44,328 nt of DNA from a virus. The first letter of the stretch is position 1. Each line of letters opens with the position of its first letter. This document shows positions 1-44,328 of the stretch, one piece after another. The notes below the pieces were generated by a model, which was not told the origin of the DNA, ran no database searches, and was given only the letters and a program-made list of their open reading frames with translations. Made by a program: the position numbers and the translations under genes. Location: positions 1-44,328 of the IMG/VR virus record IMGVR_UViG_3300036768_000383; one strand, given 5' to 3'.

Positions 1-21
1 TTGGTATAGCTGGGTGGTCAA

Positions 22-51
22 GAAAACGGCTTATAAGTCAAAATTGTGGGA
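22..51 (+). promoter_or_regulatory. Palindromic operator-like element, copy A
   Basis: A 30-bp element centred on GGCTTATAAGTC (28-39). It differs at only 4 of 30 positions from 35894-35923, and at 7 of 30 from the inverted copy at 35829-35858, whose core GGCTTATAAGCC is a perfect palindrome. It lies just upstream of the first gene and repeats at 44223-44252. Its position before the structural and early operons suggests a shared regulator-binding site or a phage-specific promoter; no binding protein can be named. Confidence 0.6.
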
Positions 52-57
52 GAAGCG

Positions 58-120
58 ATGGACGTTTCCTACGAAAGATGCAAGAGCTACAAGGACGAAT
101 GGCTTACTCCCCGAGGGAGG
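58..120 (+). pseudogene. Decayed 5' copy of the Dam-like methyltransferase gene
   Basis: From ATG at 58 the reading frame gives about 20 residues that match the start of the methyltransferase at 404: YERCKSYKDEWLTP here against YERCSDYRDEWLTP there. The DNA also matches around GACGAATGGCT. The similarity stops at about 99-105, where the text becomes the ribosome site of the next gene (GGGAGG at 114-119). The frame stays open into that gene, so a fused 112-residue product is possible. I read it as a leftover of a second methyltransferase copy truncated by arrival of the small gene at 127. Confidence 0.6.
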
Positions 121-126
121 AAGACG

Positions 127-393
127 ATGAGTGATTCTAAGAACATGCGTTTATGGATGAGTGCTCTGACGGATATTGAAGAGCTTGAAGTTGAGTTAAC
201 GGAGGATGGTGATGGCATTTTGCGTGTTGTATACGGTGATATGTTTATCGAGTTGAGCCATCCAGATGCGAGATGGTTTGCTCAGCGCTTGCGTGAGCTT
301 GCTAATGAGCTAGAGACACTTATCGAGACTGGTGGTGTTTTTTGTGGTGGTATAAGGCGAAGGCCGTCTGACAAAGAGACGGGGCAGGATTAG
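127..393 (+). CDS. Small early-type protein, beta-meander plus helix family
   Basis: 88-residue hypothetical protein. ATG at 127 is chosen over 46 or 58 because GGGAGG (114-119) lies 7 bases upstream and the earlier codons are a methyltransferase remnant. The pattern GILRVVYGDMFIEL followed by RLRELANELE resembles the protein at 36286 (GVLHIFGSDIWTEV, then RLREIADEIE) and more loosely those at 36509 and 36733. The predicted form is beta-strands followed by one amphipathic helix. Function is unknown. A member of an early accessory family sitting at the head of the structural operon suggests a mobile small-gene cassette. Confidence 0.75.
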   Translation: MSDSKNMRLWMSALTDIEELEVELTEDGDGILRVVYGDMFIELSHPDARWFAQRLRELANELETLIETGGVFCGGIRRRPSDKETGQD

Positions 394-3326: not shown

Positions 3327-3640
3327 TGACTAAGATTGACCAGATTGCTACGTTTTCATGCGTTGCCTGTGGCAAACCAGGCACGGAAACGCAGTTGTTC
3401 AAGCTGCGTGGCGCTATCAACGAGAACGCCTATGCCTGCGCTCTGTGCCTCGCACGCTTTGGCAATGATGCTCTTGCTCGCGAGTACGATAGGCAGCTTT
3501 CCGAGGCGACGGTGGCGAGCTACATTCAGCCCCGCTGCCTTCACTGCGGAGAGCCAGTTATTATGTTAGGAGACGGGAATATCCCGTTGTGGTGCTCGGC
3601 TTGCGAGCGGGAACGGAGAGAGCTATATGGCAAGCGATGA
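3326..3640 (+). CDS. Zinc-ribbon protein between terminase and portal
   Basis: 104-residue hypothetical protein with three Cys pairs: CVACG near the N-terminus, CALC in the middle, CLHCG and CSAC in the C-terminal third. This implies one or two zinc sites. Starts at GTG 3323 and ATG 3326 are both possible; ATG 3326 overlaps the nuclease stop. The end overlaps the portal start at 3627. Position suggests an accessory packaging or head-assembly factor, but no function can be assigned. Confidence 0.7.
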   Translation: MTKIDQIATFSCVACGKPGTETQLFKLRGAINENAYACALCLARFGNDALAREYDRQLSEATVASYIQPRCLHCGEPVIMLGDGNIPLWCSACERERRELYGKR

Positions 3641-5690
3641 AATCCTGATTCCTGGCGAAGAGCTAACGGAGGCCTCTCCGGACAATGACGAACCAACCAT
3701 CCAGGTACTGGAGCAGCCTCTCGAAATCAGGTTGCGTTATGACCCAAGGACTGGGCCAACGCAGGAGCATCAGCGCATCCTCTCCCGCCTGAATGCCAGG
3801 CTTGACCTTTCGTACCAGCAAATGCGGCAGCGCAGTGCTCAGTGGGATGAGCTTGACAAGTACCTGCGCCTTTATGTTGATGCTTCATATCCGAGAAAGC
3901 CTACAACTGCTGATGGTACAGGCGAAGATAAGCGGCGTCTGATTATCCCAGTCAGCTTGGCCATCCTGCAGGTTAGGACAGTGCAAATGTGGGGCATGTA
4001 CGCTGCAAGGGCTCCGCTGTTTGCCATCAAAGGCATCGGCCCTGAGGACGTGGAGCCAGCCAAGTACATCGAGGCGGCCATCCACTACGACACGGAGCAA
4101 TCTAACGCAGCAGCGCAGCTCTATATGTTCTTCTTCGACGCAGAGCGTTATGGCTCTGCCTGGATTGGTGATTGGTGGGAGGAGAAGTACGGCTGGAAGC
4201 GTGTGCCACCGTCAACGTTCGAAATGATGATGTACAAGATGGCCACAGCAGCCGGGATGAACGTACCACCTCCAAAGGGCAGGCGCGAGTGGCAACTGCT
4301 TTGCGAGCACAACGCTATCGAGGCCAAAGACCCGAGGCTTATGTACCCTGACCCAAGGGTGCCACTCTCGGAGCCTGACGCTGGGGAGTTCATCGGCGAG
4401 AAGGACTTCCAGACGTATCTTGCCTTGCTGGAGAAGTCGCAGGAGAACGGCGGACCTTACTTCAACCTTGACGCCGTCAAGAAGATGCGGCTAGGCTCCA
4501 TCTCCGGGGACGACAGGGCAACGACGCGGGCACGTCGAAGAGCTATTGGCGACCCGCTCGAAACCATGAACCTTGCTTACACGTCCGACCCAGATGATGC
4601 AGTTGGCATTATCCCCATTGAGCACATCAGAATCAAGCTCGTGCCCCGCGACTGGGAGCTTGGAGATTCGGAGAAGCCGGAGATTTGGTGGTTCACCATC
4701 GCTGACGAAAAGGTCATTATCCGGGCTCACAGGTCGGCATATGATCACAATTCGTTCGGCTACTCGTACGCAGAAAGCCAGTTCGACACGCATTCCATCG
4801 GCAACCCGTCGAGCATCGAGACGTTGCTTCCTCTGCAGAAGGCCATGGACTGGTTGTTCAACTCGCACTTCGAGAACATCCGCAGGGCGCTCAACAACGT
4901 CCTTATCTACGCTCCTACGCTGATTGAAGAAGAAGACTTGCTGAACCCAGGTCCGATGCAGCACATTCGGCTATCGAGGTTGGGTGAGCAGCTGGTTATG
5001 AGTGGCCAGCTTCAGCCTCAAGCCGCTGTACAGCAGCTGCCAATCACTGATATAACGAGCCCGCACCTTCAGGCCATGCAGCAGATCTTCGATATGATTC
5101 AACGCGTTGCGGCAACTTCAGATCCGCAGATGTCCTCAACGACACCAGCGAAGCGCACTCTTGGCGAGATCCAGGCCATGATGCAGAGCTCCTCCCAGAG
5201 GCTTACCGCTTTGGCGCGGCTCATTGATCTCACTGCTATCAGGCCAATGGTTCGAAGGCTGATTTCGAACCGTTTGCAGTTCACCCAACTTCCGCAATGG
5301 GTTGGACTCACAGGTGATATGGCCGAGAAGGCTGGGCTGAAGCAGATTCTCATTACGCCGTCGAACATCGTTGGGAGCTATGACTACGAGCTGTTGGACA
5401 CACAGGCAGAGAATGATCCAGCGCGTCAAAGCGAGGCGTGGTCGCTCTTCATGCAGGCTGCTGGAACTCTTTACAAGTTCCCAGGGTTTGGAGTTCCTGA
5501 CCAGAATGGCTTTGTCTTCAACATCAAAAAGGCTTTCAAGGAGTTCGCCAAGGTTCTTGGTGTACGCAACGTTGACGCGTTCTTTACGCAGGTTGCCCCA
5601 AGCCCTATGGCCGGACCTGCTCAAATCCAGGTTGTGCCAGATGAAGAAGCCGTGCAAATGGCGGAACGCGGAGATGCCATTCCGCAGTAG
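3627..5690 (+). CDS. Portal protein
   Basis: 687 residues, in the size range of short-tailed phage portals. It has a long N-terminal helical region, a central segment with IPIEHIRIKLVPRDW, and a C-terminal part with PLQKAMDWLFNSHFENIRRALNN-type helices followed by TLGEIQAMMQSSSQRL, typical of portal stem and crown regions. It would form the dodecameric vertex ring through which DNA enters and leaves. The gene follows the terminase and precedes scaffold and capsid, the standard order. The ribosome site is GGAGAG. I call it from order, size and composition rather than one diagnostic motif. Confidence 0.85.
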   Translation: MASDEILIPGEELTEASPDNDEPTIQVLEQPLEIRLRYDPRTGPTQEHQRILSRLNARLDLSYQQMRQRSAQWDELDKYLRLYVDASYPRKPTTADGTGEDKRRLIIPVSLAILQVRTVQMWGMYAARAPLFAIKGIGPEDVEPAKYIEAAIHYDTEQSNAAAQLYMFFFDAERYGSAWIGDWWEEKYGWKRVPPSTFEMMMYKMATAAGMNVPPPKGRREWQLLCEHNAIEAKDPRLMYPDPRVPLSEPDAGEFIGEKDFQTYLALLEKSQENGGPYFNLDAVKKMRLGSISGDDRATTRARRRAIGDPLETMNLAYTSDPDDAVGIIPIEHIRIKLVPRDWELGDSEKPEIWWFTIADEKVIIRAHRSAYDHNSFGYSYAESQFDTHSIGNPSSIETLLPLQKAMDWLFNSHFENIRRALNNVLIYAPTLIEEEDLLNPGPMQHIRLSRLGEQLVMSGQLQPQAAVQQLPITDITSPHLQAMQQIFDMIQRVAATSDPQMSSTTPAKRTLGEIQAMMQSSSQRLTALARLIDLTAIRPMVRRLISNRLQFTQLPQWVGLTGDMAEKAGLKQILITPSNIVGSYDYELLDTQAENDPARQSEAWSLFMQAAGTLYKFPGFGVPDQNGFVFNIKKAFKEFAKVLGVRNVDAFFTQVAPSPMAGPAQIQVVPDEEAVQMAERGDAIPQ

Positions 5691-7029: not shown

Positions 7030-8208
7030 ATGGCGATGCTGCCTGGGATGTTTGGAACTGGTAACTGGCAGGCTGATCAGCGACCGAAGAACTTTCGGGA
7101 GATGATTCTGCGGCTCTTCCCTGACTCTCCGGCTACCTTCACTGCTTTCCTTGGGAAGCTGCCGGACGAGTCTACTGATGACCCTGAGTTTGCGTGGTTC
7201 GAGCAGGGCCTGCCTGAGCTGCGACTTATTGCTTCTGCTGCTTTCACAGCTACTGCGACTAACATCACGCTCCAGGGGCAGGACAGCTACAAGAACGTGC
7301 GGCCTGGACTGGCCTTGCTGAACGAGCGCACGCTGGAGGTGATGTGGGTCACCAACTCTGCGCCGATTGACGCGAGCACCTCGCAGGTAACCGTGGTGCG
7401 TGGTAAGGGGTCTACCGCTGCCGCTGGCAACTCCGGCGACGGCTTGTTGATCCTCGGCTCCCATCACCCTGAAGGCGATAGCGTCCCCAAGGCGCTGCAC
7501 ATGAACCCAGTGAAGTACTACAACTACTGCCAGATCTTCCGCGATTCTCTGCACCTGACCCGTACCGCCGATAAGGTCAACCTGCGCACCGGCCCTGATT
7601 ACCAGAAGAAGAAGAGGGATCTCTCCGAGCAGCATGCAATTCGCATGGAGCAGTCCTTCCTGTTTGGAACTGGCGTTGAGGAGGTGAACGCCACGAATGG
7701 TATGCCGGAGCGCACCACCAAGGGCTTCATCCGCTTTGTGTCTACCTACGTCCTCGACTGGAACAGTGGTGTGAGCTCCACAGTGATTGATGATGCATGC
7801 GAGCAGATCTTCCGTTCTGGTTCCAGCACTAAGCTCGTTCTGGCTGGCTCCACGTTCCTGAACACCGTGAACAAGGCTCTGAAGAAGCAGTCCACCTACA
7901 TGATCAACCAGGGCGAGTCTGTCTACGGTGTCAAGCTGACCGAGTACGTAACTCCATTCGGTACGCTCATGATGAAGATGCATCCGCTGCTGTCGCAGAA
8001 CCCGACCTTCCGTAGCTGGGGTCTCGTGATTGACACGAAGAACGTGCGCTACCGCTACCTCCGTGGGCGTGATACCCAGTACTTGAAGGATCGGCAAAAC
8101 CCTGGAGACGACGTGATTCTTGATGAGCTGCTGACTGAGGCCGGGCTCGAAGTGAACCTGGAGCAGACTCACGCTATCATCAAGAATGCTTTGACCGTCG
8201 CTCCGTAA
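7030..8208 (+). CDS. Major capsid protein (SU10/DUF5309-like)
   Basis: 392 residues with an excellent ribosome site (AGGAGGTGAACT before ATG). The segment TRTADKVNLRTGPDYQKKKR (about 178-197) and the following helix with RMEQSFLFG are characteristic of the SU10-type major capsid family (DUF5309), which has the HK97 fold. The codon choice is visibly more biased (many gct, ctg, aag, gac) than in neighbouring genes, consistent with very high expression. It builds the icosahedral shell. No protease gene or obvious cleavage site for an N-terminal delta domain is seen. Confidence 0.9.
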   Translation: MAMLPGMFGTGNWQADQRPKNFREMILRLFPDSPATFTAFLGKLPDESTDDPEFAWFEQGLPELRLIASAAFTATATNITLQGQDSYKNVRPGLALLNERTLEVMWVTNSAPIDASTSQVTVVRGKGSTAAAGNSGDGLLILGSHHPEGDSVPKALHMNPVKYYNYCQIFRDSLHLTRTADKVNLRTGPDYQKKKRDLSEQHAIRMEQSFLFGTGVEEVNATNGMPERTTKGFIRFVSTYVLDWNSGVSSTVIDDACEQIFRSGSSTKLVLAGSTFLNTVNKALKKQSTYMINQGESVYGVKLTEYVTPFGTLMMKMHPLLSQNPTFRSWGLVIDTKNVRYRYLRGRDTQYLKDRQNPGDDVILDELLTEAGLEVNLEQTHAIIKNALTVAP

Positions 8209-9262: not shown

Positions 9263-9271
9263 GGAGGGGCC

Positions 9272-10683: not shown

Positions 10684-10685
10684 CC

Positions 10686-12185: not shown

Positions 12186-12189
12186 GACT

Positions 12190-12576: not shown

Positions 12577-12582
12577 TGAGCC

Positions 12583-14559: not shown

Positions 14560-15068
14560 TGGTCTCACTCCCAACAGACGGGCTGAATACCCTAGTACCA
14601 CTCAGGCCTGACGTTGCTGTGGCCTGGAAAGTGATGCCAGAGTTCCTCGAACGGGTGAAGAGGTTCGCTGCGAAGTATACGCCCGAGGCCGATGTTGGCA
14701 GACTCCTCATTTCCATCGTCAAATCCTTTCCGCACATGGGGCCATACTTTGGCTTTGCGTTGTTAGCGAACGACAGCGGCAAGATTGTTGGACACTCGCT
14801 GGTTTCGCTTGAGCGTGAATACGATGATGCAGACCCGTGGGTAACGATACACCACGTTGAGTCAGACATACCCCTCTCTTCCACGATAAGAAGCAGGTTC
14901 ATGGATATGGTAGAGGAGTATGCACAGGCATTTGGTGCGAAAGAGCTTCGGCTTCTTGCTCTAAGTCAGGCACATGCGCGATATTATAGGCGGTGGGGGT
15001 TCGGAGATGAACGCATCTGGATGCGCAGAGAGTTAGAAGACAAAGGGGGAATGAGCAATGGCTTCTAA
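14559..15068 (+). CDS. GNAT-like acetyltransferase fold protein in virion operon
   Basis: 169 residues. The C-terminal pattern ELRLLALSQAHARYYRRWGF matches the last strand-helix-strand of the GNAT fold, and FGFALLANDSGKIVGHSLVSL matches its central strands. The acetyl-CoA loop (Q/RxxGxG/A) is not evident, so catalytic activity is doubtful. ATG 14559 overlaps the previous stop (TGATG) with GGAGG 8 bases upstream. GNAT-like genes are common beside internal virion genes in podoviruses, perhaps as assembly factors or host modifiers. Confidence 0.65.
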   Translation: MVSLPTDGLNTLVPLRPDVAVAWKVMPEFLERVKRFAAKYTPEADVGRLLISIVKSFPHMGPYFGFALLANDSGKIVGHSLVSLEREYDDADPWVTIHHVESDIPLSSTIRSRFMDMVEEYAQAFGAKELRLLALSQAHARYYRRWGFGDERIWMRRELEDKGGMSNGF

Positions 15069-16092: not shown

Positions 16093-16101
16093 GAGGTTGA
16101 C

Positions 16102-16455
16102 ATGGCGTTTCCTATCATTGCGGCTATAATCTCGGCTCTAGGATCGGTGGCTGCAGCAAAGATGCAATCTCAAGGCCAGGCTGCTCAGGCAAGTGCATCG
16201 CGGATGGGTGGAGCGCAACAGCCGTTTACACCCGTCTCCAGCAATAGAGCTGCTGCCGCAAATGCTGCATCCGACGTTGCGCAAGCTATCCTGGCTCAGC
16301 GCGCTGCTTCTCAGCAGCCTGTTCCACCAGTCGTGGCGAGTACAGGAGGGCAGACACAATCAGGCGTTCCGTCGCAGCAGAACTACAATCAGTATCTCAG
16401 CAACGTCATCAGGCAGACTATGGAACAGTATCTCGGCCAGCGGGCTGGATACTAG
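16102..16455 (+). CDS. Small internal virion protein with hydrophobic N-terminus
   Basis: 117 residues. The first about 20 residues (AFPIIAAIISALGSVAAAK) are hydrophobic and Ala/Gly-rich, able to insert in a membrane. The rest is polar, rich in Ala, Gln and Ser, with a helical C-terminus. This resembles small ejected proteins that help form a channel across the host envelope (compare the role of T7 gp14), but homology cannot be claimed. AGGAGG precedes the start. Confidence 0.65.
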   Translation: MAFPIIAAIISALGSVAAAKMQSQGQAAQASASRMGGAQQPFTPVSSNRAAAANAASDVAQAILAQRAASQQPVPPVVASTGGQTQSGVPSQQNYNQYLSNVIRQTMEQYLGQRAGY

Positions 16456-16464
16456 GAGGATGTG

Positions 16465-17547
16465 ATGCCAGTCTATGATGCTGCCATCCGGCCGATCATC
16501 GCTGATACGTTAGCACGAGGCCTCGTGGCCGGCAGGCCGTCTGGAGCGTCTATCAACAGGGCAATCATGCAGGCTGCCATTGGCTCCGGAGTGGCGCCGG
16601 CTGACACCACGGACAACGGTATCCAGCTCAAGGACCTCATTCTTCCCGTGGTAGCCGGAGCCATCGCTTCCATCTCCCCGAAGGCGGCTCATGCGGTGCA
16701 GATTGGCAGTGGTCTGCTTGGACTTCAAGCGCAGTTGCGCGGCCAGAAGCGACAGCAGGCCATGGAGCAGCAGGTCATGGAATCTGCTGCCAGGGCAAAC
16801 CAGGAGCTTAGGGCCAGAACCGAAGCTGTTATCGCCGATCCTAACATGGATAGGCAGAAGAAGATTGCAGCCCTGGTCGCTCTCGGTCACAAGCCTGAGG
16901 ACGCTATCAGGCTCACCGACCCATTCATCTCCATGGCTCCGAGCGAGGCTGCGCAGCAGTTCCAGCAGCTTCCGACAGGTTTCTCGTGGAAGCAAGGGGC
17001 TCCGCAGTACTCTACCTCCCTCCAGAAGATCGAGACGGATAAGGGGCAACAGCCGAAGGAGCCGAAGGTCAAGGAGGTAGTGGAAACGCCAGGCTTTGGG
17101 TTGGTTGGCATCATGGATACTGGAGAGGTCAGGCAACTGAAGCTAGGTGATAAGCGCCTCGACAAGCTGCAGAAAGAGGAAACCTCTAAGCGAGGTCAGG
17201 AAAGGGATAGGACGGTCGAAGAGCTTGACAGGGCCTATCGCTCGCTCATGACTGAGGCAAAGAGCCTCGATGCAGCTGCTCAGAAATCCTTCGAAACGAC
17301 AGGTCACGTCCCTCAGCCGTTGAACGATCGTAGGCAGGAAGTGAAGCAGATGCTAGATGAACTCTCACGGCAGCTGTTTGAAGCTACTGCAGGGAAGCTG
17401 AAGAAGCAGCAGCCGCAGCCGACACCAGCTGCGCAGCCGACACAGCAGCAGCAGCAGCAAACGCAAAAGGACCCGAGGCAGGAGTACCTTGAGTTCTTTG
17501 GTGTAAAGCCTGGCGCTACCCCTGGCCTGGGCCTGAAGCTGAGGTAA
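16465..17547 (+). CDS. Putative internal virion protein, helical and Gln-rich
   Basis: 360 residues. An N-terminal section contains a weakly hydrophobic helix (DLILPVVAGAIASISPKAAH), followed by long charged helices and a Gln-rich tract near the C-terminus (TQQQQQQTQK, about 328-337). No enzyme motif was found. Start ATG 16465 has AGGAGG 5 bases upstream; the in-frame GTG at 16462 is too close. It precedes the giant polyvalent gene by 4 bases and is likely ejected with it. Confidence 0.65.
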   Translation: MPVYDAAIRPIIADTLARGLVAGRPSGASINRAIMQAAIGSGVAPADTTDNGIQLKDLILPVVAGAIASISPKAAHAVQIGSGLLGLQAQLRGQKRQQAMEQQVMESAARANQELRARTEAVIADPNMDRQKKIAALVALGHKPEDAIRLTDPFISMAPSEAAQQFQQLPTGFSWKQGAPQYSTSLQKIETDKGQQPKEPKVKEVVETPGFGLVGIMDTGEVRQLKLGDKRLDKLQKEETSKRGQERDRTVEELDRAYRSLMTEAKSLDAAAQKSFETTGHVPQPLNDRRQEVKQMLDELSRQLFEATAGKLKKQQPQPTPAAQPTQQQQQQTQKDPRQEYLEFFGVKPGATPGLGLKLR

Positions 17548-17551
17548 AGAG

Positions 17552-20500
17552 ATGGCTGACCTTAGGGAACTCTTGAACGACCCAGAGTTCATACTGATGC
17601 CGCGTAAGGATCGGCTTCAGATCATCAACCAGATCGCTCCCACTGATAGCACCTTCGCTTCGCTCGCTCCAGAGGAGCAGCAGGCGGTTATCTCCAGGCT
17701 GCTAGAATATCAGCAGGTTGACCTCCGAGCCGTCGTACAGCATCCGAAGTGGCAACAGATGCCAATAGAAGAGAGAGCTGATTGGCTCAACAAAAATGCC
17801 GGACGCGACCCGATGCTGTCGCAGCTGAAGCCTGGAGAGCAGCGAGTGGTACTCGGTAAGGCCCTTATCGCGAAGCAGACGCCTCCGCCACCTGACATGC
17901 TCGACCTGATGGTAGGCGACACTCAGCAAGTTCCTCTACAGCAGCGTAATGCGAAGCTGTTGCTTGGACGTTTGTATCCGCCTGAAATCCAGCAATACGG
18001 GCAGGAGCAGCTGATACGCTCCGCTCAGGAGGCCGTAGACAAGCAGAGCCTTGCCGAGCAGGTAGCGAACGCCTTGTCTCGCGGCATCAACCAGTTCGGC
18101 CAGAACACCATGGCCGTCCAACATGCGCTGGGCCTGCCGTACTCGCCGGAGATCGAATCTGGCGTTACGCTGCCGCTGGAGATGCAGCTCAAACCAAGCA
18201 AGCAGCAAGAGTACGAGGAGCAAGCCAAGCAACGCGCTGAGAAAGTAGCTAGGATCAGGGAAGCACTCTCGCAGAAGCTCGGTGTTCTTGGAAACATCGC
18301 CGGCATTCCCGCAAGCGTGGGCCTCTCCGTACTGAATGCCGTCGAGGGGGCTGTACAGAATCCAAAGGGAACACTGCTTGCACAGGCTGAGCAACTGCCA
18401 ATCAGCTTGCCGCCGATGGTCATGGGCGGCATGGTAGCTTCGGCTCTCGGACCTCTTGCGCCGGCACTGTCGAAGTTTGTGGCGTATGGCGTTTCGTCAG
18501 CCATTCCAGAGGCTCTGTCTGAAGCCGGCGATACTTACCTGCAAGCCAGGCAGTCCGGAATGAGCCATGCCGAAGCCAGAAATGCGTTCGCCAAGGACTT
18601 TGCTAGCAACCTTGTTCTGCTATCCACCAGCAACAGCCTTGAGGCTGCATCGGCCTTTGGAGGTCTGAAGGCTCTCGCTGGTGGAGAGAAGGCCATCCAG
18701 AAGGCAGTCGAGGAGGCCGCTAAGAAGACGGCCGAACGCGTTGCCAAGACTTCGCTCATGCAACAGGCGCTGGATACTACCTTCCGATTGCTTGGTACTG
18801 GTGCCGAGGAAGGATTTGAAGAGTACGCCCAGGCAGGTTTCCAGCAAGCTGCGCAGGCTCCTGGGCAGTTCTGGGAGAAGTTGCTCAACCCGAGCCAGCG
18901 AGAAGAGCTCGAACGCATGACCCAGGCCGAGGCTGGCGCTGCACTCGGCATGGCGTTTGGCGCAGCCGGTGCCACGAAGGCACGGCTGGAGGATGCGGAG
19001 GCGCGTTATGAGGCTTTCAAACGAAGTCAAGAGGCAGCTGGAGGAGCTGGAGGGGATGGCTCTGCTAGCGAAGTGGAGGGCGGCGGAGTACCTCCGGAAG
19101 GCCCCACCGGACGAGGCAAAGGCTTTACGTGGTGGCCATGGGGACGAAAGGATCGTCAGGGAGGGGTGGATTCGGAGCGTACTGTCAGCTCTCGAAACGG
19201 GCAAGAGGGCATGGATTCAAGCGGTGAGGGAGAAGAAGGTCAAGGAGGTAGTCCTCCAGAAGGCCGAGGACCTCAGCCGCCTGTACCGCCTGTACGTCCT
19301 AGGGGGCCTAATGTCCCCGGAGGCATCGGAGTTAGCGTGGAGTCAAGTGATGGTGGAGGATCCGACGTTGTGGGAGATGACACCTCAGGAGGCGATGGAG
19401 GAGGAGGAACGCCTCAGGGCAGCGGAGGAGGAGGCCTCGGACTTGACGAAAACCTGGCTGAGCAGGCAGTCCTAGAGATTCTCGGTCAGGGCGAAGAAGC
19501 AGAACGCCGCAGACCATTCACTGCAGAGCTAAGGCGGCTACGCAACGTAGTTGCCAACATGGCACAGAGGCTCAACAGGCCAGGCCTGGCAAGGGCAGCC
19601 TTGACTGCCCCACTGGCGCACGGCTTCGCCAACGCTACCGCACTCCAGCTCCACGAGCGACTGTTCCCTGAGTCAGAACCTGGTGTACCGTTCTTCACGC
19701 TGGCCTTCGACGCACGAGGGTTCAAGAACGTCAATGATCACCTCGGCCAAGATGCTGGCGATGCACTGATAGAGACGATCGCCGCGGAGATGGCCGATGT
19801 TCTTGATCGCTATGCCAGCACGGGCTTTCGTGTCTTTGCGGCAAGACCAGGTGGCGACGAGTTTGTCGTTCGAGCTGGCTTGAGCTCCCAGGAGTCAGCT
19901 GAGGCTCTGGCAGCTAAGATTGCGGAAGTTACTGCACCAGAAGTACTTATGGGCAAGGTTACTGTGATTCCTCAAGAGGAGTTGACAAAGTACTACGGAG
20001 GGCTTAGATTCGGTATTGGGAGGACGAGTAACGATGCCTACGAACAACTTGCAGCAGTCAAGGGACGAGAGGGATCCTTTCGAGAGGTTGTTCGAAAACA
20101 TAATGACAGGGAAGGTGGCTCCGGACAATCTGTACCTCCAGTTCCCGAGCGGTCGTCAAGTACTGTGGATAACGAAGGAGCAACTCCTCCAAGCGGCCCA
20201 GAGGTGGTGGCAGAAGAAACAGAACAGTCAGAACCAACCGTAGTAGAGAAGAAGCCGAAGAAGCCCAAGATTCTGCCTCCGAAGGAGCAGAACAAGGTCA
20301 GGAGGAAGGCGAAGTCCGATAAAACGGCCGTACAAGCCGTCGAGGAGGAGGGGGTGGCTACTACACCTACCCCAACCGAAGAAAAACGCGTTATAGAGGA
20401 ACCTCGTGCGACTTCTGAGGAGCAAGCTGAGCCAAAACCTCCAACCGAGCCGACCGAAGAGGTCAAGACCGCCAAAGAGCCAGAAGCAAAGCCCACACAA

Positions 20501-23500
20501 CCTACCCAGGAGGTCAAGTCGAAGGAGGAGGGACCTACGTTTGAAAGGTCGTCCTCTCTGCCGACCTCTCCAGAGGATTATCGTCAGTGGGCGTCTGAAG
20601 TTACAAGCCAAAAGGCCGGTAACATTCGCTCTTCCAGAAGGGCATGGCGTGACGCCCTACTTCATGGAGTTCCAGCCAAGTCCCCTGCGCCACAGACCGA
20701 GCGATACAGGGGCCTGCCAGCCCAGTCGAGGTCATACAACCCTGAAACTGTCGCTGCTTCGAACCTTGCTGCGATAAAGCTGATCAAGCAGCTCGAAGCA
20801 GAGGACAGAGGGCCGACCGATGAAGAGCTTGCCATCCTTCAGCGATTCAGAGGGTGGGGAGGGCTATCCGGACTCTTCAGCGCTTCGACCGAAAAGCTCT
20901 ACCAGATGTATAAAGAGCTTGAAAACCTCCTTGGTAGGAGCGTCGTTTCCGCGATACGGTCCACCGTACTCAACTCGCATTACACGGATCCTGTTATCGC
21001 GATGTCTATCTGGGACGGACTCAAGCGAGCCCTGGAGGGCTATAAGGAACTGTTCGCTCTCGAACCTGCTGTCGGCTCAGGAATATTTATCGCAACCTCT
21101 CCGGAGGACATCACGTTCAAGTGGCATGCGACCGACATTGATCCGATTGCTACCAAGGTTACCAAGGTCGTAACAGAAGCTACTGGCATTCCGGCAATCG
21201 TCGAAAACAGAGGCTTTGAGACCCTATCAGTGCCTGATGGTTCATTCGACCTCGTAATCACCAACGTTCCGTTTGGTGACTACAAGCTTTACGAGAAGCG
21301 GTACAATCATCTTGAGCTGAGCATTCACAACCACTTCATCGTGAAGTCTCTTGACCTTGTGCGTCCCGGTGGGCTTGTTGTGGTTATCACCTCGCGCTAC
21401 ACGATGGACTCGAAGTCCCAGAAGGCCCGCCAGGAGATGTATCAGCGAGCCGATCTTGTCACTGCTATCCGTCTCCCTCAGGAAGCCCATGCGTTCGCAG
21501 GAACGAGAGTAGTCACTGACATCCTGGTATTCCGAAGGAGGAAACCAGGAGAACTTCCCGGTGATGCGACATGGCTCTCTACTGAAGAAGTAGAGATTGC
21601 TCCTAAACAAACCGTTGACCTCAACAGTTACTGGGCTGACCACAAGGATCACATTCTTGGCCATGCGTTTCTTGGGCGTGGTCTCTACAGCGATAACGAG
21701 TACGTGGTTGCCACCTATAACCCAGAGAAGATCCCAGAACAAATAACCGACCTATTTTCTCGTGATTTACAACAAGGCATATTTGCACCAGAGGACATCA
21801 AGTCTGAGCTTGCCAGCATCAAGTCTTCCATTTCAGGCAATTATCTTGGTGGCATAGTTCACGCAGATGGTAAACTCTACAGGGTAAAGAAAGATAGGCT
21901 TACTGACAGAGAAGAATACCACGAGATTGGCCCAGCTTCTGCCGATGATATCAAGAGGTTGAAGGCGCTTGACGCTCTTTATCAGGCGCTCGATAACGTC
22001 ATTCGCGTTGCTAAAGACGGCATTCCTTCTCTCACTGAAGATGCGCTGGAGAAGCTCAAGGCTGCGTACAATGAGTTCAATAAGTCTTTTGGGCTCCTAC
22101 GCTTTGAGAAGAACATGCGGTTCCTGCAACTTACTGAACACGGCAAGGCTTTGTTTGCCATTGACCATCCGAATGGCATTGAGCATACAAAGTTCTTCAC
22201 GACGCAGAAGTCCATTCTCGGCCAGTCTAAGCTAAGAAGGATCGAGGAAGCGATTCCTATCATTGCTCTGAGGTCCGATGCTGACATAGTTGACATCCTA
22301 GCCCGCTCTGGCTATGAGGAGCTCGCAGGTAAGTCCAAAGCAGAGATAGTCGAATACCTATCAGAGCGAGGTCTTGCCTACTTTGACCCAGAGGAGCGCA
22401 AGGTTGTTCCTGCATTCATGTACCTCTCTGGGGACATAAGACACAAGCTTGAGATTGCCAAGAAGAACGCTGAAACGAACCCTCTCTTCAAGCACAACGC
22501 TCAGGCGCTTGAGCGCGTCCTTCCTCCTTGGAAGAGCTTCCAAGATATACCATTCAGACTTGGCAGCTCGTTCTTGGATAAGGAGCTTGTTGCAGGGTTT
22601 CTGCAGCTGATGCTGATGTACCCTGATAGATATGCTTCTCCTAGTGCCGCTGAGATCGTCCATGATCTTGTCGTCAAGGCAAGAGACCTAGGTCAATCAG
22701 TAAAAGATGTTCCAGAGCTAGTAGCTAGACGCGAACGTAGGAATTATTGGCTACGCATAAGGACAAATCGTGTTAACGGCGTTACAGATGTAGAGTTTAC
22801 TGTTGAAAACAGTCGTGATTTTGACAGAGCTCTAAAGACGTTTTTCGACACGCGTGTTTCTAAGAGCATCCCAGAAGGGCGGATGCAGACTGTACTCAAG
22901 GACTTCTTCTTTGATCTCCTCAATGGGACGCGGACATTCCATACTCCATTCACAGCACGTGATTTTGAAGGGAGCGAGGAATATAGGAGGGACCAAGCAA
23001 GAAGCGAAAACGAGCAGTTCAACGCAGCTATGGAGCAGCTGTACGATGAGGCACTCCAAGGATTTCGGTCCTTCGTGGAAGGACACAACGGACTTCGCCA
23101 GTACGTTGAGGAACGCTATAACAGCCTACTCAACAGCTACGTCGCGCCGAAGCCTCCGATAGAGATGCTGAAGGATGAAGACGATGGTGCTTATAGGGTG
23201 CCTGGTATGAGCAAAGACAGTTGGCTTAGGCCATATCAGGCAGAATCTGTGGTAAAGACTGTATTTCGAGGCAGCCAGATGATTGCCCATGAGGTTGGCC
23301 TCGGGAAGACGTACGTCCTGTTGTCTACCGCTGCCTATGCCAAGCACCTTGGTATTGCGCGAAAGCCTGTTATCGCTGTACCAAAAGCTACGATCCGTCA
23401 GTTCGCTGAGGAGGCAAGAAGGAGCTTCCCTGGCCTTACGATCCTATCATCTGAGTCGGTAACCAAGGGAAGGGAAACGCTTCAATCCTTCCTTGCCGTC

Positions 23501-26500
23501 ATGGCAGCAAGCGACTTCGATATTGCGATCATCACCCACGAACATCTAACACAGATCTCGCCATCTCCTGAATATATCCAGCAGGTCTTTGAAGAGATAG
23601 ACGCACAAATCAGCGATGCTATCCGCGCTGCATCTGGTGACAGGCGGCTTGTCAAGAGGCTTCAGAAGGAGGCGCAAAGGTTTGAGCGCACGTTTAGGTA
23701 TTTGGAAGGCCGTGCTAAGAAGAGCGGTATCTTCACGCTTGATAAAATCGGTATTGACTTCCTCTTTGTTGACGAAGCACACTTCTTCAAGTCTTATCCG
23801 TTGTTCGTGCTGCAGAACGTCAAGGGTGTTCCAACTACTAAATCACAGAGGTCTGTGATTCTCGATCTTCTGATTCGCAACATCAAAGATAGACGGCAGT
23901 CTGATACTGGCATCGTTCTCGCTACTGGTACGCCAATCGCCAATACGCTTCCAGAAGCCTACATTATGGCTCGCCTTGTCTCGGCAGAAGAACTGTCGAG
24001 AATTAACGTCAACACGATCAATAACTGGCTAGCTGCATTCGCTGCTGTGGATAACGACGTTGAGGTAAAAGCGACAGGAGAGATTGACGTTGTAGAGAGG
24101 CTGTCGCTGTTCGTTGATCCTGCCGCTTTCAGGAGAGCGCTCCGCACGAGCTGGTCTGTCGAGCTCGGCGAGGATCATGAGGACATTCTGCAGAGACCTA
24201 GGAAGGAGCAAATCGTCATTGAAGTAACGCCGACGCCAATTTTTCAGAAGTTCTTACTCTCGCTGCAAGAGAGAGCACAGGCTATCAAGAGGGGAGATGT
24301 AAGGCCTGAAGAGGACAACTTCCTGTACATAACTACCGATGCCTCCAAGGCTTCTGTTGACCTTCGCCTCGTAAGCAAGGATGCGACAGAAGAAGATGGC
24401 GTCAAGCTGCGTGCTGTGGCAGATAATGTGGCAAGGCTCTACAGTGAGTTTCCTGGTACTGCCCAGCTGATTTTCCTAGACAGAGGTATTTCCAGGACAA
24501 GCTGGGGCTTCTCGGCCTATGAGGAGCTCATTAGGCAGCTTGTCAAGCTTGGTATTCCACGAGAGGAGATCATTGACTTCTCGAAGCTAACCCAAGCTAA
24601 GAGGAAAGATGCTGAGGAAGGCATAAGGAGCGGAAAATACAGGGTTGCCATAGGTTCGACGAGGAAGCTAGGTACCGGCTTGAATGTCCAAGATGTCCTC
24701 GTTGCTGTTCACCATGTTGATGCTTCGTGGGTTCCGGCCGATATGGAGCAGCGTGAAGGACGCATCTGGCGCTCTGGCAACAAGAGCGATGTAGCCCGTA
24801 TCTTCACGTATGTGACCAAAGGTTCTCTCGATACGCTCTTCTACAAAGCGCTGCACAGGAAGTCTTCTTTCATCAAGCAGTTCCTCAAGGATGGTGCTCT
24901 TGAGAGCGTCGTTGAGAGCATCCCAGATCAAATCACTTATGACGATATTGCCGCCGTCGCTGCTGCAGACAAGCGCCTTATTACCCTTGCCCAACTCCAG
25001 AAAGAGCTCAAGAAGCTAACACTTCGCAGAAAAGCGCAAGAAGACAAGGTAACTCGTACAGGATCGTCTATCGCAGAGGCACAGAGGTCGCTGCGGGTTG
25101 TGAGTGACGCGATACGCGACTACGAAGAAACCCTGAAGTTGCTAACTGGCCAAAAGGATATTCCAGCTAACGCCTTGGTAGACAGCATAGACATTGACGT
25201 AGATGAGAAGGATCCGAGGAAGCTTATCGTTCAGTACTATCCTGGGATGGACGGATTCGACGAACTCCTACCGAGGCTTCGCGAAAAGTTCGAGCAAATC
25301 AAGCAACGTGTGCGCGAGCAGCACAAGCGCATGGGTGATTACGATGTCAGCTTCATCGAGAAAGTGGAGCCTAGGGCGGTTCGAACTATCCCAGCAGAGC
25401 GCAAGCTTCACTTCCTCTCGCTGTTCGATATAAAGGTCAAATACGAAGCAAAGGAAGGTGCTAGAGAAGTTCGCGAGTCAATGTCCCTGTCCAACCAGCG
25501 GGACGAGCACTGGACTCCGCTCATGAGAGCCGCAGGTGCCGCCTGGTACTTGCCATCGCACATCGCTGCAGATATTTCGGTTGACAGGGCAAACCTTATC
25601 AATCGCGTGGAGAAGTCCATCGGTCCTGTAGCTGTATTTCGCGCTGCTCTCGGCGACGCAACAATGCTACAGCAAGGCCTCGAACTCCTTCGCGATGTCG
25701 AAGGGAAGCTCAATGAATACATTGAAAAAAGACAAACATCACTCGAACAAGAACAAAAAGCTCTGGCTGAAGCTAAGACGAACGAAAGGCAGGTAGCTCA
25801 GCAGATTGACGACGTGAAGCAAGACATTGCAGCCAATCCTCATGTTATCCAGTCTTCTGATGCTAGCTTTGTACGATCTTCAGCGCAGGAAGTAAGCGAG
25901 GAGGAACGCTCACTCGAAGAGGCTGGAATACCAGAAGGAGAGGGAGACGAAGAGGAAGGTGAGGAGACACCTCCTGAAGGTACGAGAGGAGTTCCACAGA
26001 AAAAGCTGAGCGTGGCCTCCGAGGAGGCTGGCATATCCATCGAGCTGACAGCTGAGAAAGAACGGCATGGCGTCAGCAGAGCCGATATCATTCGCTACGT
26101 TCAGGATAAGCTCGTATTGCGCGTCGTGAGGCCAGCACACATGAAGCTGTACCAGAAGAAGTATGCTGCGCTGTACGATGTTGATGCTGACTACGTCTCG
26201 CTTGCCTTCGGCGGTGATACCGACGCGCTCGCTCACGAGATAGGTCATGCCTTCTGGAATAGGTTCAAGATCAAAGATGCTCTGCCTAGTAAAGAGGCCA
26301 TAGAGGAAATGCAGGCACTCGGCCGTGAGCTGTACCGTGATCCAGACATGGCCGACGATTTAGCCCTTGAGGAGGGCTTCGCCGAGGTCTTCAAGGCGTG
26401 GCTCTTTGGCGATGAGGCTCTGCACAAAGCCGCTCCGGCTGCCGGAAGCTGGCTCTCCTCGTTCATTGACGAACTTCCCGAGTACTCCAAGGACTACAAA

Positions 26501-29254
26501 GACCTCCGCGACATGTTCGATGCCTTCAGGAGGCAGGGGACGCGGGAACGCATGCTCAGGCAGCTCGGAATGTACAGGCCAAGTTTCGCAGAGAGGATTC
26601 GCCAGGCCTACCAGAAGTTGAAGATCGAACTTCCGCGCAAGCAGGCAAAGTTCCGGCGCCGCTGGCTAGATAGGTATGCTGCCATTCGCGACATCGTAGA
26701 CGCCGTCTCTGAGGTCACGCAGCTTACCGCAGAGAAAGACCCATACAAGCTCGCCAGAGCCTTCTCCATGGCTTCCCGTGGCATAGCGAAGCAATGGGTG
26801 CTGGATGGCGTTGTTGATCCATTCACCGGCCAGCACCTGTTCAAATCGCTGCGTGATGCGTTCGAGCCGGCATTCGAAGCAGCTGCGCATCTACCAACGG
26901 AAGAGGTTGCTGAGGACGTTATCCTCTACGGCATAGCCCAGTACACCCTTGAACGTGCTGGCCGCGGTCAGAAGACTGGTGTGTACGTTGCTGATGCCAA
27001 CGAGATGCTCCGGCAGCTTGCCGTGAAGTACCAGAGCAAGATCGGCGTTATCGAGCAGGCAGCCAGGGACGTGACTGCGTGGAACCACGCCGTCATTGAC
27101 TGGCTCGCCTACGTTGGCTCGCTTACCCAAGAGCAGGCAGAGCGAATCAAGGGGAGCTTCGCCTTCTACGTCCCGATGCTGCGGGCCTTCAAGGAATACG
27201 ATGAAACGACGGTCAAGCGCGAAGGGAAGCCAGGAGGTCGGCGAATCCCCATTAGCACGGTTCGGAGGTTCAAGGGCTCGAAGCGCGAGACCATCAATCC
27301 TCTCGATGCGATGGTTTTCCAGACCGAGAGGTTCATTGACGCCGGTATCCGAACCAGGATTGCGATCGCGTTCCGCGACCTTGCAGAGAAGACGCCAATG
27401 CACGGATGGTGGATGGCCAAGGTTCCGCGGACGGACCAGGCCAAGCTCAAGTTCAAGCTCGGCAGGGTTGTTGAGGAGATCGAAAAACAGTTCGGCACAG
27501 AGCTTGACGAAGTCTTCGACGAGCAGGAGCTCGATGCTTTTCTGACGCTCTGGGCCAACCATCCGGCCTTTTTGGACCCGAAGGAGCCCATCATCGTATT
27601 CCGCGATCGTGGAAAAACTGAGTTCTGGCGCATCAATGACCAAGACCTGTTGGACACGCTGCGAGAATCGGATGAACTTACAATCGGCTCGTTCCTCCGC
27701 ACGCTTCTTGCGCCTCTTGGGCGGCTAGCGCGTCTGCAACGTCTTGGCGCCACAGGTCTGAACCCTGGATTCACCTTCGTGACGGCGCTCTTGCGAGACG
27801 TTTGGGATGCCTTCATGGTTACTAAGTGGACTGCCAAGGCGTATCCGAGGCGGACCTTCGAAGCGCTCCAAGAGCTTGTGCTTCAGACGCTCGGCAAGGA
27901 TTCTCCTGCTGCAAAGGCGTTCAAAGAGATGGGCGCTGAAATGACCACTCTTATGGGCCTTGACAGGCGCGTCGCGAAAGACATTCGAGACTCCATCATG
28001 CTGCGGGCAAAGACAACGAAGGGCAAGGTCAAGTTCATTATCATGCACCCTGTTGACAGCCTGAGAGCATTCTTCGGTGGCGAGGAAATTGCCCTTCGTC
28101 TACCTGAGTTCTCCAAGACGTATGAAGAGCAGAAGGCCAAAGGCGCAAGCGAGCAGACAGCTCGCATCGAGGCGCTGCTGGCAGCGAAGGAAGTCACCCT
28201 TGACTTCTCCAAGGCTGGTGTCTATGCCAGGTTCCTGAATAACTACATCCCGTTCTTCAATGCTGCTATAAGGGATATTGACAGGTTCGTTTCCTCGATG
28301 CGGACGAACCCGAGGAAGGTATTCTGGCGAGCCTTCCTCTCGATTACAGTACCCTCTATCATTCTCTACCTCATGAACTCTGATGAAGACTGGTATGACG
28401 AAATCCCAGAATGGGAGCGTGCATTGTTTATCCACATCAAGATTGGAGAGCACAGCGATGGAAAACCGTTCGTTCTACGCATACCGTACCCATTCACCTT
28501 TGGTCTGGTATTCGGTGCCTTCCCAGTCATGCTGTTGCGAACCCTTCACAAGGGCTCCAATGACGTTGACTGGCAGCGGTGGAAGCAAACTGTCATGGAG
28601 AAGCTCCTGCCTCCTACCAGAGTTCCACTCATCTCCACGATCTACGACCTGGCGGTAAACAAGGGATGGACCGGCCAGCCGATCGTTCCAGAGGGTCTCG
28701 CGAAGGTGGAAGACAAATACCAGTTCCTGCGGAACACTTCGGAGTTCTATAAGTGGATTGGGGAAATGACCGGGCTCAGCCCGCTCAAGGTGCAGTATGC
28801 TGTGCGAGACCTTACCGGCGGCCTATCCGAGACGTTCACGAACCCGCTGAAGGCCAGAAGGGAAATGGCTGACTGGCCGGTTATCGGACGCTTGTTCATG
28901 CGTAACGAGCGCTTCGGCAAGAGCTATCAGGAGCTCTATGATGACCTGAAGAAGGCAGAGGAAGCTTATAACACCATCCTCAGGCTTCGGAAGATGGGAG
29001 AGATTGACAAGGCGGTCAAGGTGGCTCTTGATAATGCGGAGCTGCTCGGATTCAAGGATACAGACTTCAGAATCGCAATGCTGAGAAGGTCGCTTGAGCT
29101 TAGGAATCGTGACTTCCCGGCGAGCTTCTACTTCCCGAACCTCAAGCGCCTACGCGAGCAAGCGGACACGCTTGGCCAAATGACGAGAGAAGGTTCCTCG
29201 CCCTATGATATAACCTTAGAGGCGCGGAAGATGCGCCAGGAGGCGGCGCGATGA
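17552..29254 (+). CDS. Giant polyvalent ejection protein (GGDEF, methylase, helicase, zincin, LPD38-like)
   Basis: 3,900 residues, roughly 430 kDa, 26% of the genome. Domains in order: helical virion region with a Gly-zipper-like hydrophobic stretch (about 1-485); Gly/Glu-rich linker (486-640); GGDEF domain (about 700-840; D720, N728, D737, GGDEF at 767-771); Pro/Glu/Lys linker (857-1000); N6-adenine methylase with LEPAVGSG from L1170 and NVPF at 1238-1241; SF2 helicase with GLGKT 1916-1920, DEAH 2074-2077 and QREGR 2400-2404; coiled coils (about 2440-2810); zincin HEIGH at 2895-2899 with a possible third ligand E2940 or E2941; LPD38-like helical end (about 3380-3780). The methylase-helicase is preceded by the family-typical FRGWGGL. 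The layout matches phage polyvalent proteins thought to be injected with DNA and active against host defences. The stop overlaps the next start (ATGA). Confidence 0.92.
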   Translation: MADLRELLNDPEFILMPRKDRLQIINQIAPTDSTFASLAPEEQQAVISRLLEYQQVDLRAVVQHPKWQQMPIEERADWLNKNAGRDPMLSQLKPGEQRVVLGKALIAKQTPPPPDMLDLMVGDTQQVPLQQRNAKLLLGRLYPPEIQQYGQEQLIRSAQEAVDKQSLAEQVANALSRGINQFGQNTMAVQHALGLPYSPEIESGVTLPLEMQLKPSKQQEYEEQAKQRAEKVARIREALSQKLGVLGNIAGIPASVGLSVLNAVEGAVQNPKGTLLAQAEQLPISLPPMVMGGMVASALGPLAPALSKFVAYGVSSAIPEALSEAGDTYLQARQSGMSHAEARNAFAKDFASNLVLLSTSNSLEAASAFGGLKALAGGEKAIQKAVEEAAKKTAERVAKTSLMQQALDTTFRLLGTGAEEGFEEYAQAGFQQAAQAPGQFWEKLLNPSQREELERMTQAEAGAALGMAFGAAGATKARLEDAEARYEAFKRSQEAAGGAGGDGSASEVEGGGVPPEGPTGRGKGFTWWPWGRKDRQGGVDSERTVSSRNGQEGMDSSGEGEEGQGGSPPEGRGPQPPVPPVRPRGPNVPGGIGVSVESSDGGGSDVVGDDTSGGDGGGGTPQGSGGGGLGLDENLAEQAVLEILGQGEEAERRRPFTAELRRLRNVVANMAQRLNRPGLARAALTAPLAHGFANATALQLHERLFPESEPGVPFFTLAFDARGFKNVNDHLGQDAGDALIETIAAEMADVLDRYASTGFRVFAARPGGDEFVVRAGLSSQESAEALAAKIAEVTAPEVLMGKVTVIPQEELTKYYGGLRFGIGRTSNDAYEQLAAVKGREGSFREVVRKHNDREGGSGQSVPPVPERSSSTVDNEGATPPSGPEVVAEETEQSEPTVVEKKPKKPKILPPKEQNKVRRKAKSDKTAVQAVEEEGVATTPTPTEEKRVIEEPRATSEEQAEPKPPTEPTEEVKTAKEPEAKPTQPTQEVKSKEEGPTFERSSSLPTSPEDYRQWASEVTSQKAGNIRSSRRAWRDALLHGVPAKSPAPQTERYRGLPAQSRSYNPETVAASNLAAIKLIKQLEAEDRGPTDEELAILQRFRGWGGLSGLFSASTEKLYQMYKELENLLGRSVVSAIRSTVLNSHYTDPVIAMSIWDGLKRALEGYKELFALEPAVGSGIFIATSPEDITFKWHATDIDPIATKVTKVVTEATGIPAIVENRGFETLSVPDGSFDLVITNVPFGDYKLYEKRYNHLELSIHNHFIVKSLDLVRPGGLVVVITSRYTMDSKSQKARQEMYQRADLVTAIRLPQEAHAFAGTRVVTDILVFRRRKPGELPGDATWLSTEEVEIAPKQTVDLNSYWADHKDHILGHAFLGRGLYSDNEYVVATYNPEKIPEQITDLFSRDLQQGIFAPEDIKSELASIKSSISGNYLGGIVHADGKLYRVKKDRLTDREEYHEIGPASADDIKRLKALDALYQALDNVIRVAKDGIPSLTEDALEKLKAAYNEFNKSFGLLRFEKNMRFLQLTEHGKALFAIDHPNGIEHTKFFTTQKSILGQSKLRRIEEAIPIIALRSDADIVDILARSGYEELAGKSKAEIVEYLSERGLAYFDPEERKVVPAFMYLSGDIRHKLEIAKKNAETNPLFKHNAQALERVLPPWKSFQDIPFRLGSSFLDKELVAGFLQLMLMYPDRYASPSAAEIVHDLVVKARDLGQSVKDVPELVARRERRNYWLRIRTNRVNGVTDVEFTVENSRDFDRALKTFFDTRVSKSIPEGRMQTVLKDFFFDLLNGTRTFHTPFTARDFEGSEEYRRDQARSENEQFNAAMEQLYDEALQGFRSFVEGHNGLRQYVEERYNSLLNSYVAPKPPIEMLKDEDDGAYRVPGMSKDSWLRPYQAESVVKTVFRGSQMIAHEVGLGKTYVLLSTAAYAKHLGIARKPVIAVPKATIRQFAEEARRSFPGLTILSSESVTKGRETLQSFLAVMAASDFDIAIITHEHLTQISPSPEYIQQVFEEIDAQISDAIRAASGDRRLVKRLQKEAQRFERTFRYLEGRAKKSGIFTLDKIGIDFLFVDEAHFFKSYPLFVLQNVKGVPTTKSQRSVILDLLIRNIKDRRQSDTGIVLATGTPIANTLPEAYIMARLVSAEELSRINVNTINNWLAAFAAVDNDVEVKATGEIDVVERLSLFVDPAAFRRALRTSWSVELGEDHEDILQRPRKEQIVIEVTPTPIFQKFLLSLQERAQAIKRGDVRPEEDNFLYITTDASKASVDLRLVSKDATEEDGVKLRAVADNVARLYSEFPGTAQLIFLDRGISRTSWGFSAYEELIRQLVKLGIPREEIIDFSKLTQAKRKDAEEGIRSGKYRVAIGSTRKLGTGLNVQDVLVAVHHVDASWVPADMEQREGRIWRSGNKSDVARIFTYVTKGSLDTLFYKALHRKSSFIKQFLKDGALESVVESIPDQITYDDIAAVAAADKRLITLAQLQKELKKLTLRRKAQEDKVTRTGSSIAEAQRSLRVVSDAIRDYEETLKLLTGQKDIPANALVDSIDIDVDEKDPRKLIVQYYPGMDGFDELLPRLREKFEQIKQRVREQHKRMGDYDVSFIEKVEPRAVRTIPAERKLHFLSLFDIKVKYEAKEGAREVRESMSLSNQRDEHWTPLMRAAGAAWYLPSHIAADISVDRANLINRVEKSIGPVAVFRAALGDATMLQQGLELLRDVEGKLNEYIEKRQTSLEQEQKALAEAKTNERQVAQQIDDVKQDIAANPHVIQSSDASFVRSSAQEVSEEERSLEEAGIPEGEGDEEEGEETPPEGTRGVPQKKLSVASEEAGISIELTAEKERHGVSRADIIRYVQDKLVLRVVRPAHMKLYQKKYAALYDVDADYVSLAFGGDTDALAHEIGHAFWNRFKIKDALPSKEAIEEMQALGRELYRDPDMADDLALEEGFAEVFKAWLFGDEALHKAAPAAGSWLSSFIDELPEYSKDYKDLRDMFDAFRRQGTRERMLRQLGMYRPSFAERIRQAYQKLKIELPRKQAKFRRRWLDRYAAIRDIVDAVSEVTQLTAEKDPYKLARAFSMASRGIAKQWVLDGVVDPFTGQHLFKSLRDAFEPAFEAAAHLPTEEVAEDVILYGIAQYTLERAGRGQKTGVYVADANEMLRQLAVKYQSKIGVIEQAARDVTAWNHAVIDWLAYVGSLTQEQAERIKGSFAFYVPMLRAFKEYDETTVKREGKPGGRRIPISTVRRFKGSKRETINPLDAMVFQTERFIDAGIRTRIAIAFRDLAEKTPMHGWWMAKVPRTDQAKLKFKLGRVVEEIEKQFGTELDEVFDEQELDAFLTLWANHPAFLDPKEPIIVFRDRGKTEFWRINDQDLLDTLRESDELTIGSFLRTLLAPLGRLARLQRLGATGLNPGFTFVTALLRDVWDAFMVTKWTAKAYPRRTFEALQELVLQTLGKDSPAAKAFKEMGAEMTTLMGLDRRVAKDIRDSIMLRAKTTKGKVKFIIMHPVDSLRAFFGGEEIALRLPEFSKTYEEQKAKGASEQTARIEALLAAKEVTLDFSKAGVYARFLNNYIPFFNAAIRDIDRFVSSMRTNPRKVFWRAFLSITVPSIILYLMNSDEDWYDEIPEWERALFIHIKIGEHSDGKPFVLRIPYPFTFGLVFGAFPVMLLRTLHKGSNDVDWQRWKQTVMEKLLPPTRVPLISTIYDLAVNKGWTGQPIVPEGLAKVEDKYQFLRNTSEFYKWIGEMTGLSPLKVQYAVRDLTGGLSETFTNPLKARREMADWPVIGRLFMRNERFGKSYQELYDDLKKAEEAYNTILRLRKMGEIDKAVKVALDNAELLGFKDTDFRIAMLRRSLELRNRDFPASFYFPNLKRLREQADTLGQMTREGSSPYDITLEARKMRQEAAR
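19008..19475 (+). CDS. Overprinted ORF A inside the giant gene
   Basis: 155-residue ORF read +1 relative to the giant gene. GGAGG (18997-19001) lies 6 bases before ATG 19008, an ideal ribosome site. The product looks like a normal globular helical protein: KRQLEELEGMALLAKWRAAE, six Trp, well mixed hydrophobic and charged residues, natural codon variety. In the same stretch the giant protein is low-complexity Gly/Glu/Pro linker, so selection appears to act on the +1 frame. The family is unknown. Alternatives are chance opening in purine-rich DNA, or a frameshifted short form of the giant protein. Confidence 0.6.
   Translation: MRLSNEVKRQLEELEGMALLAKWRAAEYLRKAPPDEAKALRGGHGDERIVREGWIRSVLSALETGKRAWIQAVREKKVKEVVLQKAEDLSRLYRLYVLGGLMSPEASELAWSQVMVEDPTLWEMTPQEAMEEEERLRAAEEEASDLTKTWLSRQS
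20034..20243 (+). CDS. Overprinted ORF B inside the giant gene
   Basis: 69-residue ORF, also +1 relative to the giant gene. GGGAGG (20018-20023) lies 10 bases before ATG. The product is compact and protein-like: FERLFENIMTGKVAP, LYLQFPSGRQVLWITKEQ, AAQRWWQKK, suggesting helix, beta-hairpin, helix. The first third overlaps the last helix of the GGDEF domain, the rest overlaps linker. TTGACA (19982) and TAGATT (20005) with a 17-base gap lie just upstream and could drive it separately. The family is unknown. Confidence 0.55.
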   Translation: MPTNNLQQSRDERDPFERLFENIMTGKVAPDNLYLQFPSGRQVLWITKEQLLQAAQRWWQKKQNSQNQP

Positions 29255-44201: not shown

Positions 44202-44328
44202 TTGGTATAGCTGGGTGGTCAAGAAAACGGCTTATAAGTCAAAATTGTGGGAGAAGCGATGGACGTTTCCTACGAAAGATGCAAGAGCTACAAGGACGAA
44301 TGGCTTACTCCCCGAGGGAGGAAGACGA
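44202..44328. repeat. 127-bp terminal direct repeat, right copy
   Basis: Exact copy of bases 1-127, including the palindromic element at 44223-44252 and the methyltransferase-like codons from 44259. It shows that the non-coding region at 43.2-44.2 kb is directly upstream of the structural operon in the circular genome. Confidence 0.97.

Follow-up and report, generated by a model that had tools for sequence, protein, structure and literature searches.

The 44,328-nucleotide viral contig IMGVR_UViG_3300036768_000383, analysed here over its whole length (the window), encodes a 3900-amino-acid (aa) DarB-like polyvalent protein in which residues ~683-841 form a true GGDEF (diguanylate cyclase) domain. 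The fold of the domain, its metal- and guanine-contacting residues and the position of its gene are consistent with a cyclase that the phage may carry into the host cell. The features on which this finding rests are as follows.

17552..29254, + strand: DarB-like polyvalent protein of 3900 aa in which the GGDEF domain lies (stop-free open reading frame, ORF; PHROG 10089 DarB-like, E=1.6e-230)
19598..20074, + strand: GGDEF domain, residues ~683-841 (Pfam; AlphaFold2 model; Foldseek against the PDB)
19709..19762, + strand: DARGFKNVNDHLGQDAGD, with metal-binding Asp720, Arg722 in place of the second Asp, Lys725, Asn728 and Asp737 (translation; alignment)
19850..19864, + strand: GGDEF signature, residues 767-771, within R765-P-G767-G-D-E-F771 (translation)
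20009..20074, + strand: C-terminal element F820-GIG...K837-G-R839-E-G, in which the equivalent of PleD Arg446 is displaced or absent (translation; alignment)

Identity and fold of the domain

The Pfam GGDEF profile (PF00990) matches residues 710-793 at E=1.2e-9 and 38.6 bits (cut-off 23.8), a six-frame search of the record returns GGDEF at 42.2 bits (E=1.8e-12), and phmmer against the PDB recovers essentially GGDEF proteins (best E=9.9e-7). The AlphaFold2 model, built from an input alignment of 17 sequences, has a mean predicted local distance difference test score of 82, exceeding 90 in core blocks, and adopts the palm-like GGDEF fold. All 50 PDB matches listed by Foldseek are GGDEF proteins, led by SiaD (SiaD-SiaC), WspR (PA3702) and PA0575; they include PleD, the structural comparison proposed in an earlier, sequence-only reading of this DNA. 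The GGDEF letters and positions given there were exact when the translation was re-checked, and the domain that it placed at 19650-20075 is indeed present but begins further upstream, near residue 683 (window ~19598).

Catalytic and regulatory residues

Six of the seven residues used to judge function, in PleD numbering D327, K332, N335, D344, D370, K442 and R446 (PMC6629876), are retained in the phage domain, as D720, K725, N728, D737, D769 and K837. The metal and guanine residues of PleD (D327, N335, D344, D/E370), together with the GG[D/E]EF loop, are all matched (D720, N728, D737, D769, GGDEF 767-771), as is the full set of four residues to which PMC4215984 assigns metal and guanine binding in the tDGC of Thermotoga maritima. 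Among the phosphate contacts, K332 and K442 correspond to K725 and K837, and the R446 position is occupied by G, with an Arg at +2 (R839) and not +4. The first metal Asp, the guanine-contacting Asn and Asp and the signature are conserved as originally described; in the C-terminal element the Arg446 equivalent is out of place. The replacement of the second Asp of DxD by R722, also remarked upon at the time, is real, but does not argue against activity, because T. maritima tDGC, a working cyclase, likewise lacks this residue (D-L-A-G-F-K in the phmmer PDB match). No RxxD inhibitory site (I-site) occurs in residues 749-766 before GGDEF (stretch ...RYASTGFRVFAARPGGDEF), as the sequence-only reading had it.

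At non-catalytic core columns the domain averages ~30% identity to aligned cellular GGDEFs, whereas the seven tested positions that belong to the catalytic set or the signature are all retained; the chance of this under equal drift is ~2e-4, a rough figure that treats the positions as independent. We consider an active cyclase plausible, and lean slightly towards it. As for the product, Hypr (cGAMP-making) GGDEFs are recognised by having Ser, not Asp, at the guanine-contacting position (PMC6456294); the position is Asp737 here, which makes a Hypr synthase unlikely and favours cyclic di-GMP (c-di-GMP) over cyclic GMP-AMP (cGAMP). A relationship to Panoptes OptS, whose mCpol palm nearly lacks the GG[D/E][D/E]F motif (PMC12657218), is disfavoured by the canonical GGDEF and the PF00990 match, and a c-di-GMP sponge operating via the I-site is disfavoured by the absence of that site.

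Architecture of the giant protein

The gene takes up 26% of the genome, and the following features flank the GGDEF domain or lie beyond it.

19040..19456, + strand: Gly/Pro/Ser/Glu-rich linker before GGDEF, residues ~497-635 (composition scan)
20105..20611, + strand: Glu/Pro/Lys/Thr-rich linker after GGDEF, residues ~852-1020 (composition scan)
21059..21556, + strand: DNA adenine methyltransferase domain with EPAVGSG and TNVPFG (Pfam Eco57I, E=4.1e-6; motifs)
23276..24778, + strand: SNF2-type helicase, SNF2-rel_dom plus Helicase_C (Pfam, 4.1e-8 and 8.4e-8)
26234..26392, + strand: zincin-type metallopeptidase motif HEIGH...EEGFAE (sequence motif alone; no Pfam match)
28385..28840, + strand: LPD38 large polyvalent protein-associated domain (Pfam, E=1.1e-30)

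Two long low-complexity linkers set the GGDEF domain apart from the remaining protein, in which a DarB-like methylase-SNF2 module, the zincin motif and LPD38 follow in that order. By combining several unrelated conflict domains (GGDEF, methylase, SNF2 and LPD38) in one phage protein, it is polyvalent in the sense of Iyer et al. (2017). Giant DarB-like proteins are widespread among phages (103 records), and the antirestriction proteins of this type compared below share the methylase-SNF2 module at 27-29% identity over ~1450 aa. No GGDEF was detected in 12 other DarB-like phage records or in five capsid relatives, while two positive controls were detected. Since it is absent from both sets, the GGDEF domain is best regarded as an accessory cassette. 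In IMG/VR, the search for close relatives of the whole giant protein gave weak SNF2-region matches only.

Gene position and genome context

In phages related through their capsid (Vibrio VS-ABTNL-3, Desulfofustis, Microcystis, Caulobacter Kuura and Roseobacter CRP-810 phages), a gene encoding 1358-2016 aa occupies the corresponding end of the structural block, adjoining an annotated DNA injection protein (VS-ABTNL-3 block) or an 'internal virion protein D' (CRP-810). The C-terminal part of the window giant resembles that of the Desulfofustis phage (E 7e-5), in which LPD38 falls below the cut-off. The giant protein occupies the slot of an injected internal protein in related phages. DarB is itself a virion head component in P1 (PMC5512222). 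Gene position and this analogy lend support to packaging and injection without proving them, and we regard injection as likely.

The surrounding genome supplies these features.

1..127 and 44202..44328, no strand: terminal repeat copies (exact direct repeat)
3627..5690, + strand: SU10-like portal protein (Pfam PF23899, 4.7e-12)
7030..8208, + strand: major capsid protein (PHROG 1328, E=9.8e-44; phage homologues)
16462..17547, + strand: 361-aa protein where relatives have an internal virion or DNA injection protein ahead of the giant gene (gene order; no PHROG match)

The contig closes on itself through the exact 127-bp direct terminal repeat (1-127 = 44202-44328) and looks like a complete tailed-phage genome of ~44.2 kb, with the caveat that 127 bp is a common assembler k-mer size. 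A rightward block comprises terminase pieces, the SU10-like portal, the major capsid protein and head and tail-type genes, with the 11.7-kb giant gene last; a small gene, an amidase and RecE/RecT lie downstream. The large terminase is seemingly split (1586-3326) into an ATPase-like part (1586-2290) and a nuclease-like part (2457-3326). Between the two lies a further ORF, read in a different frame (2071-2460); frameshift, insertion or a natural split are all possible. To the right of RecT (33190-43200) PHROG matches are mostly absent, nine proteins tested from 33190 rightward giving one weak match. None of the genes tested was recognisable as an integrase, and the genome contains no EAL phosphodiesterase that would oppose the cyclase, no Rfam match to RNA elements including c-di-GMP riboswitches, and no tRNA that might hint at the host; the nearest phages are distant relatives from many hosts.

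Phylogeny and other phage GGDEF domains

In the phylogenetic tree the window, which sits on a long branch, does not group with the other phage GGDEFs (4 changes), although a single clade is not rejected (approximately unbiased test, p-AU 0.25). A common phage type, suspected from RPGGDEF, DxN/R..FK and short C-terminal loops, is neither supported nor rejected by the tree, and RPGGDEF is also common in cellular GGDEFs and is no phage marker. Matches labelled MT83xxxx or Listeria appear to be mostly ordinary cellular cyclases.

Elsewhere among phages, small stand-alone GGDEF proteins are encoded immediately before an antirestriction gene in Yuavirus PaSz-4 (L058, 5962-6432) and the Vojvodinavirus Bordetella CN1 (L060, 4953-5411), and Myxococcus phage Mx1 has a separate GGDEF gene (L059, 7983-8714) amid head genes (prohead protease, major capsid). 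In five IMG/VR records (L013, L016, L042, L043, L044) the domain is C-terminal in phage proteins of 727-1367 aa; these and Mx1 form a well-supported group that has N where the second Asp would be and reads R(P/N/T)GGDEF, in which the tested metal and guanine residues are all kept. A giant phage protein of 3519 aa in L018 / L019 (ORF 8261-18817) combines a GGDEF-like domain (HGDEF variant) with a following inorganic pyrophosphatase (InPase), which could drive a cyclase reaction forward by removing pyrophosphate.

Proposed mechanism and alternatives

We propose that the GGDEF domain was captured as an accessory cassette, tethered by flexible linkers, inside a DarB-like polyvalent protein which would be packaged and enter the cell with the DNA, as do P1 DarB and podovirus internal proteins. 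Injected copies may bring two GGDEF domains together as a dimer, in which each domain would bind guanosine triphosphate (GTP) and the GGDEF loops would join two GTP into c-di-GMP. Lacking both I-site and stalk motif, such an enzyme should escape product inhibition, which would fit a handful of injected molecules. The c-di-GMP could disturb host cyclic-nucleotide signalling (motility, biofilm) or jam a nucleotide-triggered defence, while the methylase-helicase module might protect the phage DNA. The analysis demonstrates the fold, the residues, the architecture and the gene position, whereas packaging, injection, dimerisation, activity and purpose are inferred from them and from known relatives. 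Taken as a whole, this explanation has in our judgement a slightly better than even standing. A bolder version, in which the phage injects a constitutively active, feedback-insensitive cyclase at entry whose c-di-GMP or related dinucleotide reprogrammes the host or shuts down a defence that senses nucleotides, seems to us doubtful.

Several observations weigh against the proposal. The domain lacks the Arg446 equivalent and has a shortened C-terminal loop; the N-terminal DxLTGLxNR is degraded to APLAHGFANA near residue 683, with loss of Asp, Thr and Arg; and no branch in the tree is longer than that of the window (5.0 changes per column), so that a binding-only or dead domain is possible. That a domain embedded in a chain of 3900 aa can dimerise is a presumption. 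The collections searched yielded no relative that combines this domain with this protein, the comparison by which conservation would be tested directly. What the domain has lost, namely RxxD, three residues of DxLTGLxNR (Asp, Thr and Arg) and a portion of the C-terminal loop, is regulatory or structural.

Loss of the Arg446 equivalent, of the second Asp and of DxLTGLxNR, together with the very long branch, could also be explained by a degenerate GGDEF that makes no c-di-GMP; it would serve the polyvalent protein as a sponge, decoy or scaffold by binding GTP, another nucleotide or a partner protein. Catalytically dead GGDEF domains are numerous in cells. Such an account is possible, if less probable than activity, as all metal and guanine contacts and the GGDEF loop were kept while the remainder diverged, and a sponge acting through the c-di-GMP-binding I-site is unlikely, that site being absent. 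A cyclase that is active late in infection and not at entry, in freshly synthesised protein up to and during particle assembly, is unlikely. In its favour, the gene closes the structural (late) block, hence hundreds of copies would be expected late, and Mx1 has its GGDEF gene among head genes; but the DarB-like partners act on incoming DNA (PMC5512222) and the gene position matches that of injected proteins. A chance motif or a chimeric assembly is highly improbable, for although the exact protein occurs on one contig only in the collections searched, the Pfam match (E=1.2e-9) and confident fold refute a chance motif, the frame is uninterrupted over 3900 aa, GC content and that of third codon positions (GC3) are similar along the whole gene, and the contig closes on itself.

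The bolder version, an injected and feedback-insensitive cyclase, would if true be to our knowledge the first demonstrated virion-borne second-messenger cyclase. If active, the domain would imply that viruses can write into, and not only erase, the host second-messenger pool used by Panoptes and the cyclic-oligonucleotide-based anti-phage signalling system (CBASS). Phage delivery of cyclic-nucleotide synthases has been predicted from domains since 2017, and the present copy is a testable example: the domain is small, has disordered linkers on both sides and has shed its inhibitory elements, so it should be easy to express and assay.

Comparison with known systems

The closest described counterpart is the Acetonema longum prophage polyvalent protein WP_004096050.1, which has GGDEF, SWI2/SNF2, methylase, zincin and ART domains (Iyer et al., 2017, PMC5512222), and GGDEF in such proteins was proposed to interfere with host nucleotide responses or to act against rival elements (PMC5512222). 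It shares GGDEF, SNF2, methylase and zincin, and the same proposed role in nucleotide conflict, with the window protein, a likeness drawn from described architecture; it differs in having ART, for which Pfam found no match in the window, and in belonging to a firmicute prophage, where ours is a complete phage contig. DarB-like antirestriction proteins (P1 DarB and the giants of Bcep22-like phages, SopranoGao, PEp14 and VvAW1) share the methylase-SNF2 module, but none of 12 such phage records encodes a GGDEF. PleD, WspR, SiaD and tDGC (PF00990) share the fold, the metal- and guanine-binding residues and, in K725 and K837, two of the three phosphate contacts, whereas the window domain is embedded in a phage protein, shows no receiver or stalk domain and no RxxD, has lost DxLT and has a displaced Arg446 equivalent. 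The other phage GGDEFs (PaSz-4, CN1, Mx1, L013/L016/L042-L044, L018) mostly keep the catalytic residues in protein contexts that differ from that of the window. Our searches of open-access papers brought up no experiment that tests or demonstrates such a cyclase in a phage. The idea of GGDEF within polyvalent proteins was published in 2017, and the present case is a further example of it, with the catalytic residues now checked.
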